This document shows positions 6,407 to 14,235 of a DNA stretch of 64,000 nucleotides, piece by piece; positions within the stretch are counted from its first letter, which is position 1, and every line of letters starts with the position of its first letter. The DNA is from Acidobacteriota bacterium (GTDB lineage Bacteria; Acidobacteriota; Terriglobia; Terriglobales; Acidobacteriaceae). A model generated the notes under the pieces. That model was not told where the DNA came from and made no database searches. It worked only from the letters and a program-made list of their open reading frames with translations. The position numbers were made by a program, and so were the translations under genes. The DNA lies in assembly GCA_021846275.1 (NCBI GenBank), contig JAJZBZ010000001.1:186001-250000 (forward strand), read 5' to 3'.

Positions 6407-7453
6407 ATGGGAATTTCGCGAGAGCAGGCGATGGAGTTTTTCCGTTCCGATGACCTGATTGGTCTGGGGATGGAAGCGGACGCGGTGCGGCGCAGGCTGC
6501 ATCCGGAGAATGTGGTGAGCTACATCATCGACCGGAATATCAACTACACGAATTTCTGCACGGAGTACTGCACGTTTTGCGCGTTTTATCGGCCGCTGAA
6601 GGGGGCGCGCTCGGAGGAGGGTTACATTCTGGACTTCGAGACGATCTACGAGAAGATTGCCGAGACGGAGGCGCTGGGCGGGACGGGCGTGCTGATGCAG
6701 GGAGGGATCCATCCGGAACTGAAGATTGACTGGTTTGAGCGGCTGTTTCGCGGGATCAGGGAGCGGTTTCCGCGGATATGGCTGCACTGCCTTTCGGCGT
6801 CGGAGATTCTGGCGATTGCCGAGTACTCGGAGCTGAGCCTGCGGGAGACGATTGCGCGGCTGCGAGAGGCGGGACTGGACTCGATTCCGGGCGGCGGCGC
6901 GGAGATTCTGGACGACGAGGTGAGGCACAGGATTGCGCGGCTGAAGTGCAGGACCGAGGACTGGGTGAGCGTGCACAGGACGGCGCATGAGCTGGGGATG
7001 CGCACGACGGCGACGATGATGTTTGGGGTGGGCGAGACGATGGAGCAGCGCGTGAATCACTTCGAGGTGGTGCGGCAGTTGCAGGAAGAGACGGGCGGAT
7101 TTACGGCGTTTATTCCGTGGAGCTTTCAGCCGAATCACACGGCGCTGGGCGGACGCGGCTGGGACGAGGCGACTTCCGTCGAGTATCTGAAGGTGCTGGC
7201 GATCTCACGGCTGTATCTGGACAACATTCTGAATGTGCAGGCGAGCTGGGTGACGCAGGGGCTGAAGGTGCTGGAGCTGGGGCTGCACTTTGGCGGGAAC
7301 GATGTGGGTTCGGTGATGCTGGAAGAGAATGTGGTGAAGGCGGCGGGGACGAGCAACTGCACGACGGAAGAAGAACTGCGACGGATTATTCGCGACGCGG
7401 GATTCAGGCCGGTGCAGCGGGACACGCTGTATACGACGATGTTTCTGAATTGA
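6407..7453 (+). CDS. mqnC: Cyclic dehypoxanthinyl futalosine synthase (radical SAM)
   Basis: MqnC is a radical SAM enzyme that cyclises dehypoxanthine futalosine in the futalosine route to menaquinone. The 348-residue protein has the cluster motif [11 protein letters not shown] at about 55-65 (Cx3Cx2C), the MQGGIHPEL segment, the [10 protein letters not shown] motif and [12 protein letters not shown], all characteristic of the MqnC/CofH group. [12 protein letters not shown] and the absence of a CofH partner favour MqnC. mqnD, a later pathway enzyme, lies at 13.4 kb. The start is set by a TAGAAT box 6 nt upstream instead of a clear Shine-Dalgarno sequence. Confidence 0.93.
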
Positions 7454-7495: not shown

Positions 7496-8317
7496 TCAGT
7501 AGTGTTTGTAGGCCTGGTTGAACGCCGGGTGGGGCTGGTTGTGGATGAATGCCGCCACGTCCCAGGCTTGCTGCGCGGTGATGGTGCCGGGGCGATTCTG
7601 CGGCATGTTGTGGTAGACGAAGGCGGCCATCTTCGGAATCTGGTTCATGCCGGCGCCGTCGTTGTAGGCGTCCGGCCCCCAGAGCGGCGGAAACTGCGGC
7701 GTGTAGCCAGCGCCGATGGGTCCGTGACAGCCGGCGCACTGAGCGACGTAGAGGCGCTGGCCGCGCGCGGGATCGGGCGTGAGCGCGGGCATGGGAACGA
7801 GGCCGCGTCCGATGAATTTGCGGCGCGTGGGCTGAGGGGTGGAAAGCCAGTCGATGTAGGCGAGCAGGGCGCGCATTTCCCTGCCCTGCGGGTCGAGCGG
7901 AGTGCCGTTTTCGCTGCGCACGAAGCACTCCTGGATGCGTTCGGCGAGGGTGATGACGCGGCCGGCGCGTTTGTTGTAAGTGGGGAAAATCGCGGGCAGG
8001 CCGACCATGGGCGAAGCGTAGGGACGGATGCCGCCCTGCATGTGGCAGTCGGAGCAACTGACGAGCGCGCGGGCGTGGTCAGAGGCAAACTCCGGCGTGG
8101 CGATGAAGATGCGTCGGCCCTGGCGGATGAGTTCGCCCTGAGAGTCAGCGGAGACGGATTCGATGGACGGCGCGTGCCAGGGCATGGTGCCGGGTGGCTC
8201 AGTGGGCAGGCTCCACCAGGTGGACAGGCGCGGGTGGCTGAAGCCGAACCAGAGAATGCCGCCATAGAACGCGGCGCAGAGCAGGCCGAGCAGCAGGATG
8301 GAGTGCTTGCGGATCAA
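7496..8317 (-). CDS. TsdA-like dihaem cytochrome c (putative thiosulfate dehydrogenase)
   Basis: A 273-residue protein with an N-terminal signal anchor (residues 7-27) and two haem-binding sites, CSDCH at 88-92 and CAGCH at 194-198. The order and content around them match the TsdA/SoxA-like family: a GGIRPYASP segment after haem 1, AERIQECFVRSENGTPL at 125-141, and PPLWGPDAYNDGAGM at 210-224. Cys131 is placed where TsdA-type enzymes supply an axial Cys ligand to haem 1; this placement is inferred, not modelled. Family members oxidise thiosulfate to tetrathionate or run the reverse reaction. The start overlaps the upstream gene's stop by 4 nt, so the two are translationally coupled. It is the third gene of a periplasmic operon. 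Confidence 0.8.
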   Translation of the reverse strand: MIRKHSILLLGLLCAAFYGGILWFGFSHPRLSTWWSLPTEPPGTMPWHAPSIESVSADSQGELIRQGRRIFIATPEFASDHARALVSCSDCHMQGGIRPYASPMVGLPAIFPTYNKRAGRVITLAERIQECFVRSENGTPLDPQGREMRALLAYIDWLSTPQPTRRKFIGRGLVPMPALTPDPARGQRLYVAQCAGCHGPIGAGYTPQFPPLWGPDAYNDGAGMNQIPKMAAFVYHNMPQNRPGTITAQQAWDVAAFIHNQPHPAFNQAYKHY

Positions 8318-9324
8318 TGTTCGCGCTCCGTGGGCTGAGGCTGCGTTGCAGCGGCGGGCGCGTAGGGACGGAAGCCGAAGCTGCGGTAAGCGGCTTGCGC
8401 GTCGGGGGATTGGAGGAAGCGGACCCAGGCCTCGGCGGCGGCGCGGTGAGGCGCGTTGCTGAGGACTCCGGCGGCGTAGATGGCGGTGACGTTCTGCGCG
8501 GCGGGGATGGCGACGCCGGTGATGGGGTTGCCGATCTTCTGCTGGAAGGCGACTTCAGAGGACCAGGTGACGCCGGCATCGGCCTGACCGGCGAGGATGC
8601 GCATGGGCGTCTGGCGGTGGTGAATCTGGGTGAGGCGCGTCTGCCCGGTGGCGACTTTGGAGACGTAGACGGACTGGTAGAGCGGGTCGTCGCCGGCGTT
8701 GCGCAGGGCTGCGGCGATCTGGCGCGCGACGCCCTCCCAGGCGGGATTGGGCATGCTGAGGCGCAGATCGGGGCGGGCGAGATCGTTGAGCGAGTGAATC
8801 GCTTTGGGATTGGCGGCGGGGATCATGATGGCCAGATCGTTGGTGGCGTAGCGGGTGACATGATCGACCTGATGGGCGGATTGCATGGCGTCGAGGACGC
8901 GCGCGCCGGCTTCGTAGACATCAGGGGTGACGCGGAGGGTGAAGTTGCCAAGCGTGACGGTGTTGTTGTGCGCGATCTGCTGGCGGAGGATGCCGGGCGG
9001 CAGGGTTTCGTAGAAGATGTGGCCGCGGAGTTCGGGGTGAAGCTGCTCGAAGCGGGCGACGAGCTGGGGCAGGACGAAGAACTGGTTGCCGCCGATGAAG
9101 AGGACAAGCTGCGCGTCGGCGGGATTGCCGTGGAGATCGGGCGTGTTGTCGATGTCGCCGACGGGGAAGGCGTAGCCGTGGTCGGCGGCGGGATCGTTGT
9201 GTCCGGCGGACCAGGGCGGCAGCGGCTGCGAGCTGGCTGGGACGGCGGGCAGGAGCGGTTGCTGCGCAGGGAGGGCGTGCGCGGCAGCCAGTAGGACTGC
9301 CGCGAGAGTGAGCGTGCGTTTCAT
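8314..9324 (-). CDS. Periplasmic ModA-like substrate-binding protein
   Basis: A 336-residue protein with signal peptide MKRTLTLAAVLLAAAHALPAQ. The body has the type 2 periplasmic binding fold seen in molybdate/oxyanion binders: a first strand with LVLFIGGN, then NDLAIMIPAANPKAIHSL, LARPDLRLSMPNPAWEG, and ILAGQADAGVTWSSEV near the C-terminus. No ABC permease or ATPase gene is near, so it may not serve uptake but instead sense or present a ligand to the coupled cytochrome (inference). The next gene overlaps it by 4 nt. The ligand is unknown; a sulfur or molybdenum oxyanion is plausible from fold and context. Confidence 0.8.
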   Translation of the reverse strand: MKRTLTLAAVLLAAAHALPAQQPLLPAVPASSQPLPPWSAGHNDPAADHGYAFPVGDIDNTPDLHGNPADAQLVLFIGGNQFFVLPQLVARFEQLHPELRGHIFYETLPPGILRQQIAHNNTVTLGNFTLRVTPDVYEAGARVLDAMQSAHQVDHVTRYATNDLAIMIPAANPKAIHSLNDLARPDLRLSMPNPAWEGVARQIAAALRNAGDDPLYQSVYVSKVATGQTRLTQIHHRQTPMRILAGQADAGVTWSSEVAFQQKIGNPITGVAIPAAQNVTAIYAAGVLSNAPHRAAAEAWVRFLQSPDAQAAYRSFGFRPYAPAAATQPQPTEREH

Positions 9325-9361
9325 GGTCGTGCTTCCTTGTGCGTTTGAGTGTCCGTGGAGG

Positions 9362-10081
9362 TTAGACGACCTTCAGGTAGCTGTAATGGCCGACGGACTG
9401 GAGCATGGTGACCGTGCCGACGACGCCGGGGACGACGATGACGCCGGGGACAGTGTGGGCGAGCATTTCGTGGACGATCTCCTCGGGCTGCGCGGTGAGG
9501 CTGAAGCGCTTGATGAGGACGCGAGCCTGAGCTTCGGTGGCCATGTGGCAACTGAGGAAGGTGACGCCGCGCGCCTGAAGACCCTGGACGCTGGTGTCCA
9601 TTTCGGCGGAGCCGGGGTTGTTGGGGTCGGTGGAGGTGTAGCTCAGTTTGGCACCGGCTTTGCTGGGGTAGAAGATGTTGCGGACGGCGGGCTTGCCGGT
9701 TTCCGGGTCGTCCACCTTGAACCACTCGCCGACCTTGTACTTCTGCCAGATGTAGTCGTCGTAGTTGATGAGGTTGGCGGCGCCGTGAAGAGCTGCGGCG
9801 ACCTGGATCTCGTTCATGGGAACGGCGAAGCCGTAGTGCATGGCGTTGAGGGCGTTGCGGAGCGCGCCGAGGACTTCGCCGTCGGCGATGATGTTGCACT
9901 CGGCGACGAGACGGACTTTGCGCTTGCTGTGGAGGATGGGATCGAACTCTGGAAACTTCCACTGGTTCTCGGTCCAGACGATCTGGGATTCGGCGGGAGC
10001 GGTGGCGACGAGCGCGGCGGCAACGCCGATGGCGGCCTGACCGAGAAATCCGCGGCGCGAGGTGGATATAGACTGACTCAT
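9362..10081 (-). CDS. Tat-exported DsrE-like protein
   Basis: A 239-residue protein. The N-terminus carries a twin-arginine signal (SRRGFLGQAAIG at 8-19). The mature part has features of the DsrE/DsrF-like fold: AAALHGAANLI at 95-105, a GVTFLSCHMA strand with Cys178 where related proteins have a conserved Cys, and the C-terminal PGVIVVPGVVGTVTMLQSVGHYSYLK typical of the family's last strand and helix. DsrE-like proteins are sulfur-carrier or sulfurtransferase relatives, usually cytoplasmic; export makes this one unusual. A second Cys is at 62. GGAG precedes the ATG by 8 nt. It is the first gene of a three-gene reverse-strand operon. Confidence 0.72.
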   Translation of the reverse strand: MSQSISTSRRGFLGQAAIGVAAALVATAPAESQIVWTENQWKFPEFDPILHSKRKVRLVAECNIIADGEVLGALRNALNAMHYGFAVPMNEIQVAAALHGAANLINYDDYIWQKYKVGEWFKVDDPETGKPAVRNIFYPSKAGAKLSYTSTDPNNPGSAEMDTSVQGLQARGVTFLSCHMATEAQARVLIKRFSLTAQPEEIVHEMLAHTVPGVIVVPGVVGTVTMLQSVGHYSYLKVV

Positions 10082-13222: not shown

Positions 13223-13389
13223 ATCCGTGCCGACGACGGAATCCGCAAGGAAATCGTGGCGCATTGCAGGACTGACGACGGGCGAAAAGAAGCCCGGAAT
13301 GGTGGTTGCGCATCCAATCGAAGGATGAGCGCCAATCGAGTTGGGTGGAGGATGTTTTGAGAGTGAGTGAAGCAAGCGAAGGAGTGGCA

Positions 13390-14235
13390 GTGGCGGAGAA
13401 GCAGCGAACGATTACGATTGCGCACAGTCCGGACTCGGATGATGCATTCATGTTTTATGGACTGGCGACGAACAAGGTTCGCGTGCCGGGTTTTCGGTTT
13501 GAGCACACGCTCTGCGACATTGAGACGCTGAATCGGCGCGCGATGGACGAGGTGTTCTTCGATGTGACGGCGGTGTCATTCCACGCGTATCCGTACATCC
13601 AGGAAAACTATGCGCTGATGGGCTGCGGCGGGAGCGTGGGCGAAGGCTACGGACCAATGATCGTGGCCAGCCGGAAGATTGCGCTGGAAGACCTGAAGCG
13701 CGTGAAGGTGGCTGTGCCGGGAACGCTGACGACTGCGTATCTGACGCTGAAGATTTTCAATCCGGAGATTGAGACGGAGGTTGTGCCGTTTGACCGGATC
13801 ATTCCGGAGATTCTCACCGGGCGATTCGATGCGGGGCTGATTATTCACGAGGGGCAACTGACGTATGCGAACAACGGGCTGACGAAGGTCATCGACCTGG
13901 GCGTGTGGTGGCGCGAGCTGACGGGTCTGGTGCTTCCGTTGGGAGGGAATGCGATCCGGCGCGAACTGGGAGCCGAGGTGATGCGCACGGTGACGCAGGC
14001 GCTGCGCGAGAGCATTCAGCATGGGCTGGACAATCGCGAGCAGGGGCTTGAGTATGCGATGCAGTTTGCGCGCGACCTGGACGCGAATCTGGCGAATCGG
14101 TTCGTGAGCATGTATGTGAATGAGCGCACGCTGAGCTATGGCGAGGACGGCCGCGTGGCGATAAGGAAGCTGCTGGAAGCGGGCCACGAGCGCGGGATCA
14201 TTCCCGTGGCTCCGCGTGTGGATTTCATCGACTGA
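13390..14235 (+). CDS. mqnD: 1,4-dihydroxy-6-naphthoate synthase
   Basis: MqnD converts cyclic dehypoxanthine futalosine to dihydroxynaphthoate in the futalosine menaquinone route. The 281-residue product starts with ITIAHSPDSDDAFMFYGL and carries LCDIETLNRRA, DVTAVSFHAYPYI, PGTLTTAYL and GLIIHEGQLTY, matching the periplasmic-binding-like MqnD fold. The start is uncertain. GTG 13390 has GAAGGAG 5 nt upstream and gives a compact N-terminus; TTG 13357 has GGAGG 5 nt upstream and adds 11 residues. The pathway partner mqnC is at 6.4 kb, and a clear terminator follows. Confidence 0.93.
   Translation: MAEKQRTITIAHSPDSDDAFMFYGLATNKVRVPGFRFEHTLCDIETLNRRAMDEVFFDVTAVSFHAYPYIQENYALMGCGGSVGEGYGPMIVASRKIALEDLKRVKVAVPGTLTTAYLTLKIFNPEIETEVVPFDRIIPEILTGRFDAGLIIHEGQLTYANNGLTKVIDLGVWWRELTGLVLPLGGNAIRRELGAEVMRTVTQALRESIQHGLDNREQGLEYAMQFARDLDANLANRFVSMYVNERTLSYGEDGRVAIRKLLEAGHERGIIPVAPRVDFID

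Follow-up and report, generated by a model that had tools for sequence, protein, structure and literature searches.

The window analysed in this study is a 64,000-nucleotide (nt) stretch of DNA from an Acidobacteriota bacterium of the family Acidobacteriaceae (GenBank assembly GCA_021846275.1, contig JAJZBZ010000001.1, positions 186,001 to 250,000 of the forward strand). Three adjacent genes on its reverse strand, hereafter genes 1, 2 and 3, encode a DsrE-superfamily protein with a twin-arginine (Tat) signal, a solute-binding protein (SBP) and a TsdA-like dihaem c-type cytochrome, respectively (Table 1). A preliminary description drawn from the letters of this stretch had grouped them as a possible new periplasmic sulfur module, and the three open reading frames (ORFs), including the 4 nt overlap of the last two, were found at the predicted places. 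Genes 1 and 2 start with ATG and gene 3 with TTG; with the starts chosen, the same overlap was seen again in the relatives at loci L003, L004 and L008. The genome that holds the window comprises 3.34 Mb in 13 contigs and is 98.6% complete, and the named relatives found are Acidobacteria metagenome-assembled genomes.

Table 1. Positions in the window of the three genes and of their signal, motif and ligand sites
Feature	Position	Strand	Remarks
Gene 1: DsrE-superfamily protein, Tat signal, distant relative of Tsd (NF052225)	9362..10081	-	239 aa; NF052225 98.2 bits
Gene 2: solute-binding protein SBP_bac_11 (ModA/sulfate-binding class)	8314..9324	-	336 aa; 155.5 bits
Gene 3: TsdA-like dihaem c-type cytochrome, hydrophobic N-terminal stretch (by eye)	7496..8317	-	273 aa
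Overlap of gene 2 end and gene 3 TTG start, 4 nt	8314..8317	-	From ORF positions
Gene 1, twin-arginine signal region	9983..10081	-	Approximately residues 1-33, with RR at 9-10; cleavage point guessed
Gene 1, codon of invariant Cys178	9548..9550	-	Aligns with the conserved DsrE Cys
Gene 3, first haem motif CxxCH, residues 88-92	8042..8056	-	33/33 rows of A4
Gene 3, codon of Cys131, which corresponds to the Cys ligand of haem 1 (Cys138 in C. jejuni TsdA)	7925..7927	-	33/33 rows; aligned to A. vinosum TsdA
Gene 3, second haem motif CxxCH, residues 194-198	7724..7738	-	33/33 rows
Gene 3, Asn237-Met238, place of the haem-2 Met ligand	7604..7609	-	Met 33/33, Asn 28/33 rows

The Tat signal that had been read in gene 1 was recognized by TIGR01409 at residues 7-27 (23.1 bits against a cut-off of 16.7), and the RR motif is present in 58 of the 58 aligned gene 1 relatives (alignment A1, gene 1 with its relatives, 58 rows). 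Cys178 is the sole invariant cysteine both in A1 (58/58 rows) and in A7, a 19-row set that includes true Tsd proteins (19/19 rows). All 58 aligned relatives match the NCBIfam model NF052225 for 'thiosulfate dehydrogenase' (Tsd) of the AFE_0042 type at E up to 0.01. Gene 1 itself matches with E 4.7e-28 and does not reach the equivalog cut-off of 300 bits (Table 1), and it was therefore filed as a homologue of Tsd and not as a member. One relative, from genome G301 of another family, lies over the cut-off with 382 bits.

Pfam DsrE (PF02635) was not among the families matched at E up to 1 by the 58 gene 1 relatives, and the gene 1 profile gave only sub-threshold matches to PDB sequences, including 1l1s (MTH1491, E 0.64), which we take to be DsrE-like. 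The link between gene 1 and DsrE therefore rests on profile-profile comparison and on two genomes in which a DsrE protein substitutes for gene 1. With hhalign, A1 was aligned over the whole domain to A8, a set of nine L126-type DsrE proteins of which most, not all, have a signal-like N terminus by eye; the probability was 97.3 (E 2.5e-11), and C178 fell on the conserved DsrE cysteine, with about 40 additional residues ahead of it in gene 1. The comparison of A7 with A8 gave a probability of 96.7. L126, a Pfam-DsrE protein that comes from the same bacterial family and whose N terminus resembles a signal, was matched by the 58-row gene 1 profile with a score of 46.5 (probability 91.4), whereas 529 other proteins scored at most 27.1 and 100 shuffled sequences at most 21.4; the top control protein (L050 5828-6382) is itself a DsrE protein, and the next best reached 26.7. 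A second Pfam-DsrE protein, L121, was not recovered by this profile (score 14.0). An AlphaFold2 model of gene 1 with 7 close sequences was unusable (predicted local distance difference test, pLDDT, 32.8). The DsrE likeness given in the preliminary description was thus borne out; given the distant homology to a biochemically identified thiosulfate dehydrogenase family, gene 1 may also be catalytic, rather than a carrier only. We hypothesize that gene 1 works either like Tsd or like a DsrE carrier, and do not claim it to be Tsd.

Gene 2 lies far above the cut-off of Pfam SBP_bac_11 (25 bits; Table 1). Its best NCBIfam matches are ModA and sulfate-binding proteins, all below their cut-offs, including that of the ModA equivalog TIGR01256 (36.2 versus 62.5 bits), and its closest PDB relatives by sequence are SubI and sulfate-binding protein. 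An oxyanion-type binding protein lacking a permease had been proposed here, and family scans of the 11 genes called between 4029 and 14235 agree, with no oxyanion permease or ATPase gene among them. After the sole other SBP_bac_11 match in the genome come ORFs that look, by eye, like ModB and ModC. The plasmid records that match gene 2 number 31 and divide sharply: 22 are 45-51% identical over at least 84% of the length, whereas the remaining nine are 24-31% identical over 70% of the length or less. By these sequence comparisons, gene 2 is a member of a distinct SBP_bac_11 clade. A model of gene 2 from AlphaFold2 with six sequences was also unusable (pLDDT 33.8).

Gene 3, for which a TsdA pattern had been noted, matches PF21342 (SoxA-TsdA) with 47 bits against a cut-off of 27, being the only gene in the genome to do so, and matches the TsdA of Allochromatium vinosum (4wqc) in phmmer with E 9.6e-43. 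In the 33-row alignment of gene 3 (A4), the motif RxxxCxxRS around C131 (R127, R134 and S135) is identical in 33/33 relatives. The TsdA residues that could be checked, namely the two CxxCH motifs, the Cys ligand, RxxxCxxRS and M238, are all found in gene 3, which on this evidence is TsdA-like with complete catalytic-site residues. Published statements here and below are taken from excerpts of the papers cited. The haem ligand place is Lys208-Met209 in A. vinosum TsdA and Asn254-Met255 in that of Campylobacter jejuni (PMC5146829), so that the Asn of gene 3 is the same as in the latter enzyme. A lipobox-like motif is present in 11 of the 33 relatives, about a third of which may therefore be lipoproteins.

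Each of the three genes was sought in 300 family genomes, apparently one and the same set. Gene 1 was found in 53 genomes (E up to 0.001), gene 2 in 48 (E up to 1e-40) and gene 3 in 57 (E up to 1e-20); genes 1 and 2 co-occur in 46, genes 2 and 3 in 47 and all three in 45, with Fisher p values, kinship ignored, of 4e-44 for genes 1 and 2 and 9e-44 for genes 2 and 3. When neighbours within 400 bp are counted, gene 1 immediately precedes gene 2 in 45 of the 48 genomes that have gene 2, gene 3 immediately follows it in 43, and 40 have the complete trio in the order gene 1, gene 2, gene 3, so that the refutation foreseen in the preliminary description, a trio not conserved in other acidobacteria, did not come about. 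In G021, the place of gene 1 ahead of genes 2 and 3 is taken by the Pfam-DsrE protein L126, and in G038 by a 54% identical relative of L126; gene 2 thus adjoins gene 1 or a DsrE gene in 47/48 family genomes. Among the other exceptions, gene 3 is located elsewhere in G138, G186 and G224, gene 2 lies at a contig end in G243, the contig stops shortly past gene 2 in G268, and G169 has a broken gene 3 and its gene 1 on a separate contig. In the wider phylum, gene 2 was found in 7 of 396 genomes, all seven with the trio, and these are the seven genomes with the strongest NF052225 matches (at least 88 bits, against at most 57 bits in the 15 other matching genomes). The order in G301 is DsrE, Tsd, SBP, TsdA-like cytochrome, a 248-aa ORF and a c554-type cytochrome.

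Versions of this cluster also occur on plasmids of other phyla. The gene 2 clade adjoins a Tsd or DsrE gene at 16/16 sites read in 14 of the 22 closer records. Among 17 plasmid stretches that were read and scored, Tsd adjoins the SBP in 11, the hosts being Paraburkholderia (two stretches), Methylobacterium, Bosea, Bradyrhizobium (three, two of them on one plasmid), Gluconobacter, Kozakia, Acetobacter and Burkholderia. A Pfam-DsrE protein stands immediately ahead of the SBP in Komagataeibacter, two Hymenobacter plasmids, Spirosoma (with its SBP frame split in two) and, at a further site, one of the Paraburkholderia stretches, and the Methylocella and Caballeronia stretches have Tsd without an SBP of the gene 2 clade. 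The plasmid Tsd proteins scanned score 371-421 bits against NF052225 (8/8 over 300); on the plasmids read, the Tsd genes are annotated as 'hypothetical protein' or 'transcriptional initiation protein Tat'. The electron unit differs between plasmids: DoxD accompanies the Tsd and SBP pair in Gluconobacter, Kozakia and Acetobacter (L142, L146 and L148), and TsdA-type cytochromes were recognized by similarity in 13/17 stretches, PF21342 confirming the four that were scanned and the cytochrome of Bradyrhizobium lying some kilobases off. Neither a TsdA-type cytochrome nor a DoxD electron unit was found in the Methylocella stretch. Methylobacterium, Komagataeibacter, Hymenobacter GOD-10R and Spirosoma have oxidase genes nearby; sulfite exporters and YeeE/YedE occur in the Bosea and one Paraburkholderia stretch, a Blh sulfur dioxygenase in Bosea, and thiol-disulfide proteins in several stretches. 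With such sulfur genes around it, the pair stands within a sulfur island at some plasmid loci, which favours a role in thiosulfate oxidation.

Two further observations concern these plasmids. A smaller second SBP of about 240-260 aa adjoins the Tsd/DsrE and SBP pair on several of them (L145:11062-11826, L139:5079-5843, L143:4422-5138, L149:5922-6692 and L150:5857-6630). On pGOX1 of G. oxydans, the Tsd gene before the SBP is missing from the PLSDB gene table, and the DNA at L142:5175-5822 matches Tsd with 57% identity over 217 aa.

Within the family, a protein of about 870 aa is encoded 183-249 bp upstream on the same strand in 14 of the 29 trio loci read; among the other 15, some stop too near gene 1 for this neighbour to be judged. 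The protein of L057 was scanned and contains COX1, FixO and cytochrome c domains, that is, a fused cbb3-type oxidase (CcoN-CcoO-cytochrome c), to which the 13 others are 66-83% identical. The window's genome has two other COX1 genes.

The closest published counterpart is a row of genes in Acidithiobacillus ferrooxidans, comprising tsd (AFE_0042), a periplasmic SBP (AFE_0043) and doxDA (AFE_0044) (PMC6335251, PMC2754497). The Tat-signal protein AFE_0042, the SBP and doxDA are described as one operon with expression ratios that favour sulfur (PMC2754497), and higher expression of tsd-sbp-doxDA on sulfur is given in both excerpts (PMC2754497, PMC6335251); oxidation of thiosulfate by this Tsd is credited to Kikumoto 2013 (as cited in PMC6335251). 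Both clusters have a Tat-signal protein, Tsd in A. ferrooxidans, followed by a periplasmic SBP, in A. ferrooxidans beside a thiosulfate-oxidizing electron unit, and gene 1 precedes the SBP gene in this manner in the 45 family genomes counted above. The Tsd-SBP-DoxD order of A. ferrooxidans was found directly on the Gluconobacter, Acetobacter and Kozakia plasmids. In contrast, the window has a TsdA-like dihaem cytochrome where DoxDA stands, and gene 1 reaches 98 of the 300 bits of the Tsd model; AFE_0042 and AFE_0043 were likened to genes 1 and 2 by published description and by NF052225 and not sequence to sequence. A literature search over titles and abstract openings, with subscription journals mostly outside its scope, found no set of DsrE or Tsd, SBP and TsdA except the A. 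ferrooxidans papers, and no description of thiosulfate dehydrogenase in Acidobacteriaceae. The preliminary description thus holds for the most part, with a portion of its system already published: the pair of genes 1 and 2 is not wholly new, a single printed version, the A. ferrooxidans tsd-sbp-doxDA cluster, having been found.

The individual proteins have other relatives of known function. Gene 3 has the two CxxCH motifs, the haem-1 Cys ligand and the haem-2 Met of the TsdA proteins of A. vinosum and C. jejuni; unlike these, it is accompanied by a DsrE-fold protein and an SBP. A mechanism via cysteinyl thiosulfate on the haem ligand has been proposed for TsdA (PMC9562282). Gene 1 resembles DsrE, DsrF and DsrE3A (PF02635) in superfamily, by profile comparison, and in the alignment of their catalytic Cys with C178, but it differs from DsrE carriers in its Tat signal, the additional residues before the Cys and the lack of a Pfam DsrE match, and no TusA gene was found among the annotated neighbours of the trio. 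In Metallosphaera cuprina, DsrE3A takes thiosulfonate from tetrathionate as Cys-S-thiosulfonate, thiosulfate itself being unreactive, and so carries thiosulfate on its Cys (PMC4175335); a likeness of gene 1 to this Cys chemistry is drawn by analogy. Gene 2 shares the SBP_bac_11 class with ModA, SubI and CysP, but forms its own clade below curated NCBIfam cut-offs and has no permease or ATPase nearby.

On this sequence evidence, the trio is probably a periplasmic thiosulfate-oxidizing cassette that passes electrons from thiosulfate to the cytochrome c branch of the respiratory chain. Across three phyla, its constant core appears to be a DsrE-fold thiol protein with one SBP clade, while the electron unit changes, which is the expected look of a thiosulfate loading or oxidation unit; DoxD or the TsdA cytochrome is best read as the exchangeable electron exit of the DsrE/Tsd and SBP pair. 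We infer the substrate, product and direction of the reaction, the covalent intermediate on gene 1 and every hand-over between the proteins as follows. The SBP of gene 2 would capture thiosulfate and present it to this machinery rather than to an ATP-binding cassette importer. Thiosulfate would be handled by gene 1 at Cys178, its single reactive thiol, and probably be bound there covalently as Cys-S-thiosulfonate. The Cys/His haem of gene 3 would then accept two electrons and its His/Met haem would relay them to cytochrome c oxidase, with tetrathionate as the expected product. The sequences would fit either gene 1 as the enzyme with gene 3 as its acceptor, or gene 3 as the enzyme loaded by genes 1 and 2. 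A stricter version, a covalent relay, seems doubtful: thiosulfate would move from the SBP to Cys178 and from there as thiosulfonate to the haem ligand C131, so that two thiol sites, the former haem-free and the latter haem-bound, would couple two thiosulfates to tetrathionate. If this relay were true, DsrE/Tsd with the SBP would act as a periplasmic loading unit of general use, able to dock onto an oxidase linked either to quinone (DoxD) or to cytochrome (TsdA). More broadly, the comparisons suggest that Tsd has the DsrE fold and a single essential thiol, and that TsdA-type cytochromes and DoxD are alternative electron exits of one loading unit. If the cassette works in this way, Acidobacteriaceae would gain thiosulfate as an extra energy source that is hidden by present annotation.

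The division of labour could also be one in which gene 1 acts itself as thiosulfate dehydrogenase, in the manner of AFE_0042, with the TsdA-like gene 3 mainly its electron acceptor and DoxD the acceptor in Acidithiobacillus and acetic acid bacteria. The Tsd and SBP pair common to the DoxD clusters and the TsdA-type clusters fits this arrangement; however, the TsdA active-site residues kept in 33/33 gene 3 relatives go beyond the needs of a plain acceptor, and gene 1 has no known cofactor, a thiol protein requiring a redox partner, so that we consider it a minority possibility. A reversed system, with tetrathionate as the electron acceptor reduced by gene 3, and genes 1 and 2 binding tetrathionate or the released thiosulfate, appears improbable. 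The Asn-Met environment of haem 2 is that of C. jejuni TsdA, which acts in vivo as a tetrathionate reductase according to the excerpt of PMC5146829, and the DsrE3A of PMC4175335 likewise reacts with tetrathionate and not with thiosulfate, but the cbb3-type neighbours in 14/29 loci and the oxidase genes beside four plasmid versions point to aerobic oxidation, and the published A. ferrooxidans relative oxidizes thiosulfate. It is more improbable still that gene 2 binds molybdate or sulfate in the ordinary way and works with a distant permease, its placement being non-functional. ModA and sulfate-binding proteins are indeed its best NCBIfam matches, yet all of these fall below their cut-offs, the other SBP_bac_11 gene of the genome is the one with ModB- and ModC-like ORFs (by eye) after it, and the gene 2 clade is sharply separate on plasmids and stands beside a Tsd or DsrE gene at every plasmid site read and in all but one of the family genomes with gene 2.

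Several points weigh against a thiosulfate-oxidizing cassette of three cooperating proteins. The linkage is imperfect: 7 of the 53 genomes with gene 1 lack a gene 2 match (though one of them, G175, has a weaker match, truncated at a contig end), as do 10 of the 57 with gene 3, and gene 3 homologues stand with neither partner in 8/300 genomes; lone gene 1 paralogues with unrelated genes around them exist as well. The 98 of 300 bits to NF052225, together with a branch of 3.2 changes per column between gene 1 and the Tsd clade in the gene 1 tree, means that the function of gene 1 may differ from that of Tsd. TsdA alone makes tetrathionate, so that genes 1 and 2 may be dispensable helpers, and the C. 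jejuni-like Asn before the haem-2 Met means that the direction could be reversed. A search without a positive control gave no match to the fused oxidase in the window's genome, and the substrate binding and activity of the trio proteins are predictions.

The gene 1 family extends beyond the trio. The trio copies do not form one clade in its tree, in which the Tsd clade as neighbour of the window's clade was not used, as it hangs on a very long branch. A general tie of gene 1 homologues to the trio was considered and rejected: lone copies have unrelated neighbours, including chaperonin, MurJ, GidA, nitrite/sulfite reductase and hexosaminidase genes. Residue 99 (window 9785-9787) is His in 33/34 gene 1 copies beside gene 2 and in 5/24 others, which suggests a divided family, in which His99 is a candidate for the partner of C178 and could mark the working type. 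Two genomes of a single genus carry gene 1 in tandem duplicate ahead of genes 2 and 3 (L067:6005-7566 and L078:6033-7589); L067 also has two copies of gene 3, and its second gene 1 copy groups in the tree with lone copies such as L091. At L091:5318-6799, in genome G047, genes 1 and 3 form a pair 3 bp apart without gene 2, and the same genome has the full trio at another place (L069). In G175 (L176:19-2395), the order is gene 3, gene 1, gene 2, with gene 2 cut by the contig end; its gene 1 is 29% identical to that of the window, and the cytochrome-first order is that of the Bosea and Hymenobacter plasmids.

TsdA-like homologues of gene 3 also stand apart from genes 1 and 2 in Acidobacteriaceae (L168-L175 and L177-L179), and the homologue at L169 has a TauE/SafE sulfite exporter gene as its second neighbour upstream. 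In the window, the nearest genes to the trio are not sulfur-like: thymidylate kinase, P450 and mqnC lie to one side, and a CyaY-like protein, a glycosyltransferase, a LacI-type regulator, BioY and a gene of menaquinone biosynthesis to the other. The trio region is thus flanked by two genes of that pathway, mqnC and a PF02621 gene, at window positions 6407-7453 and 13306-14235.

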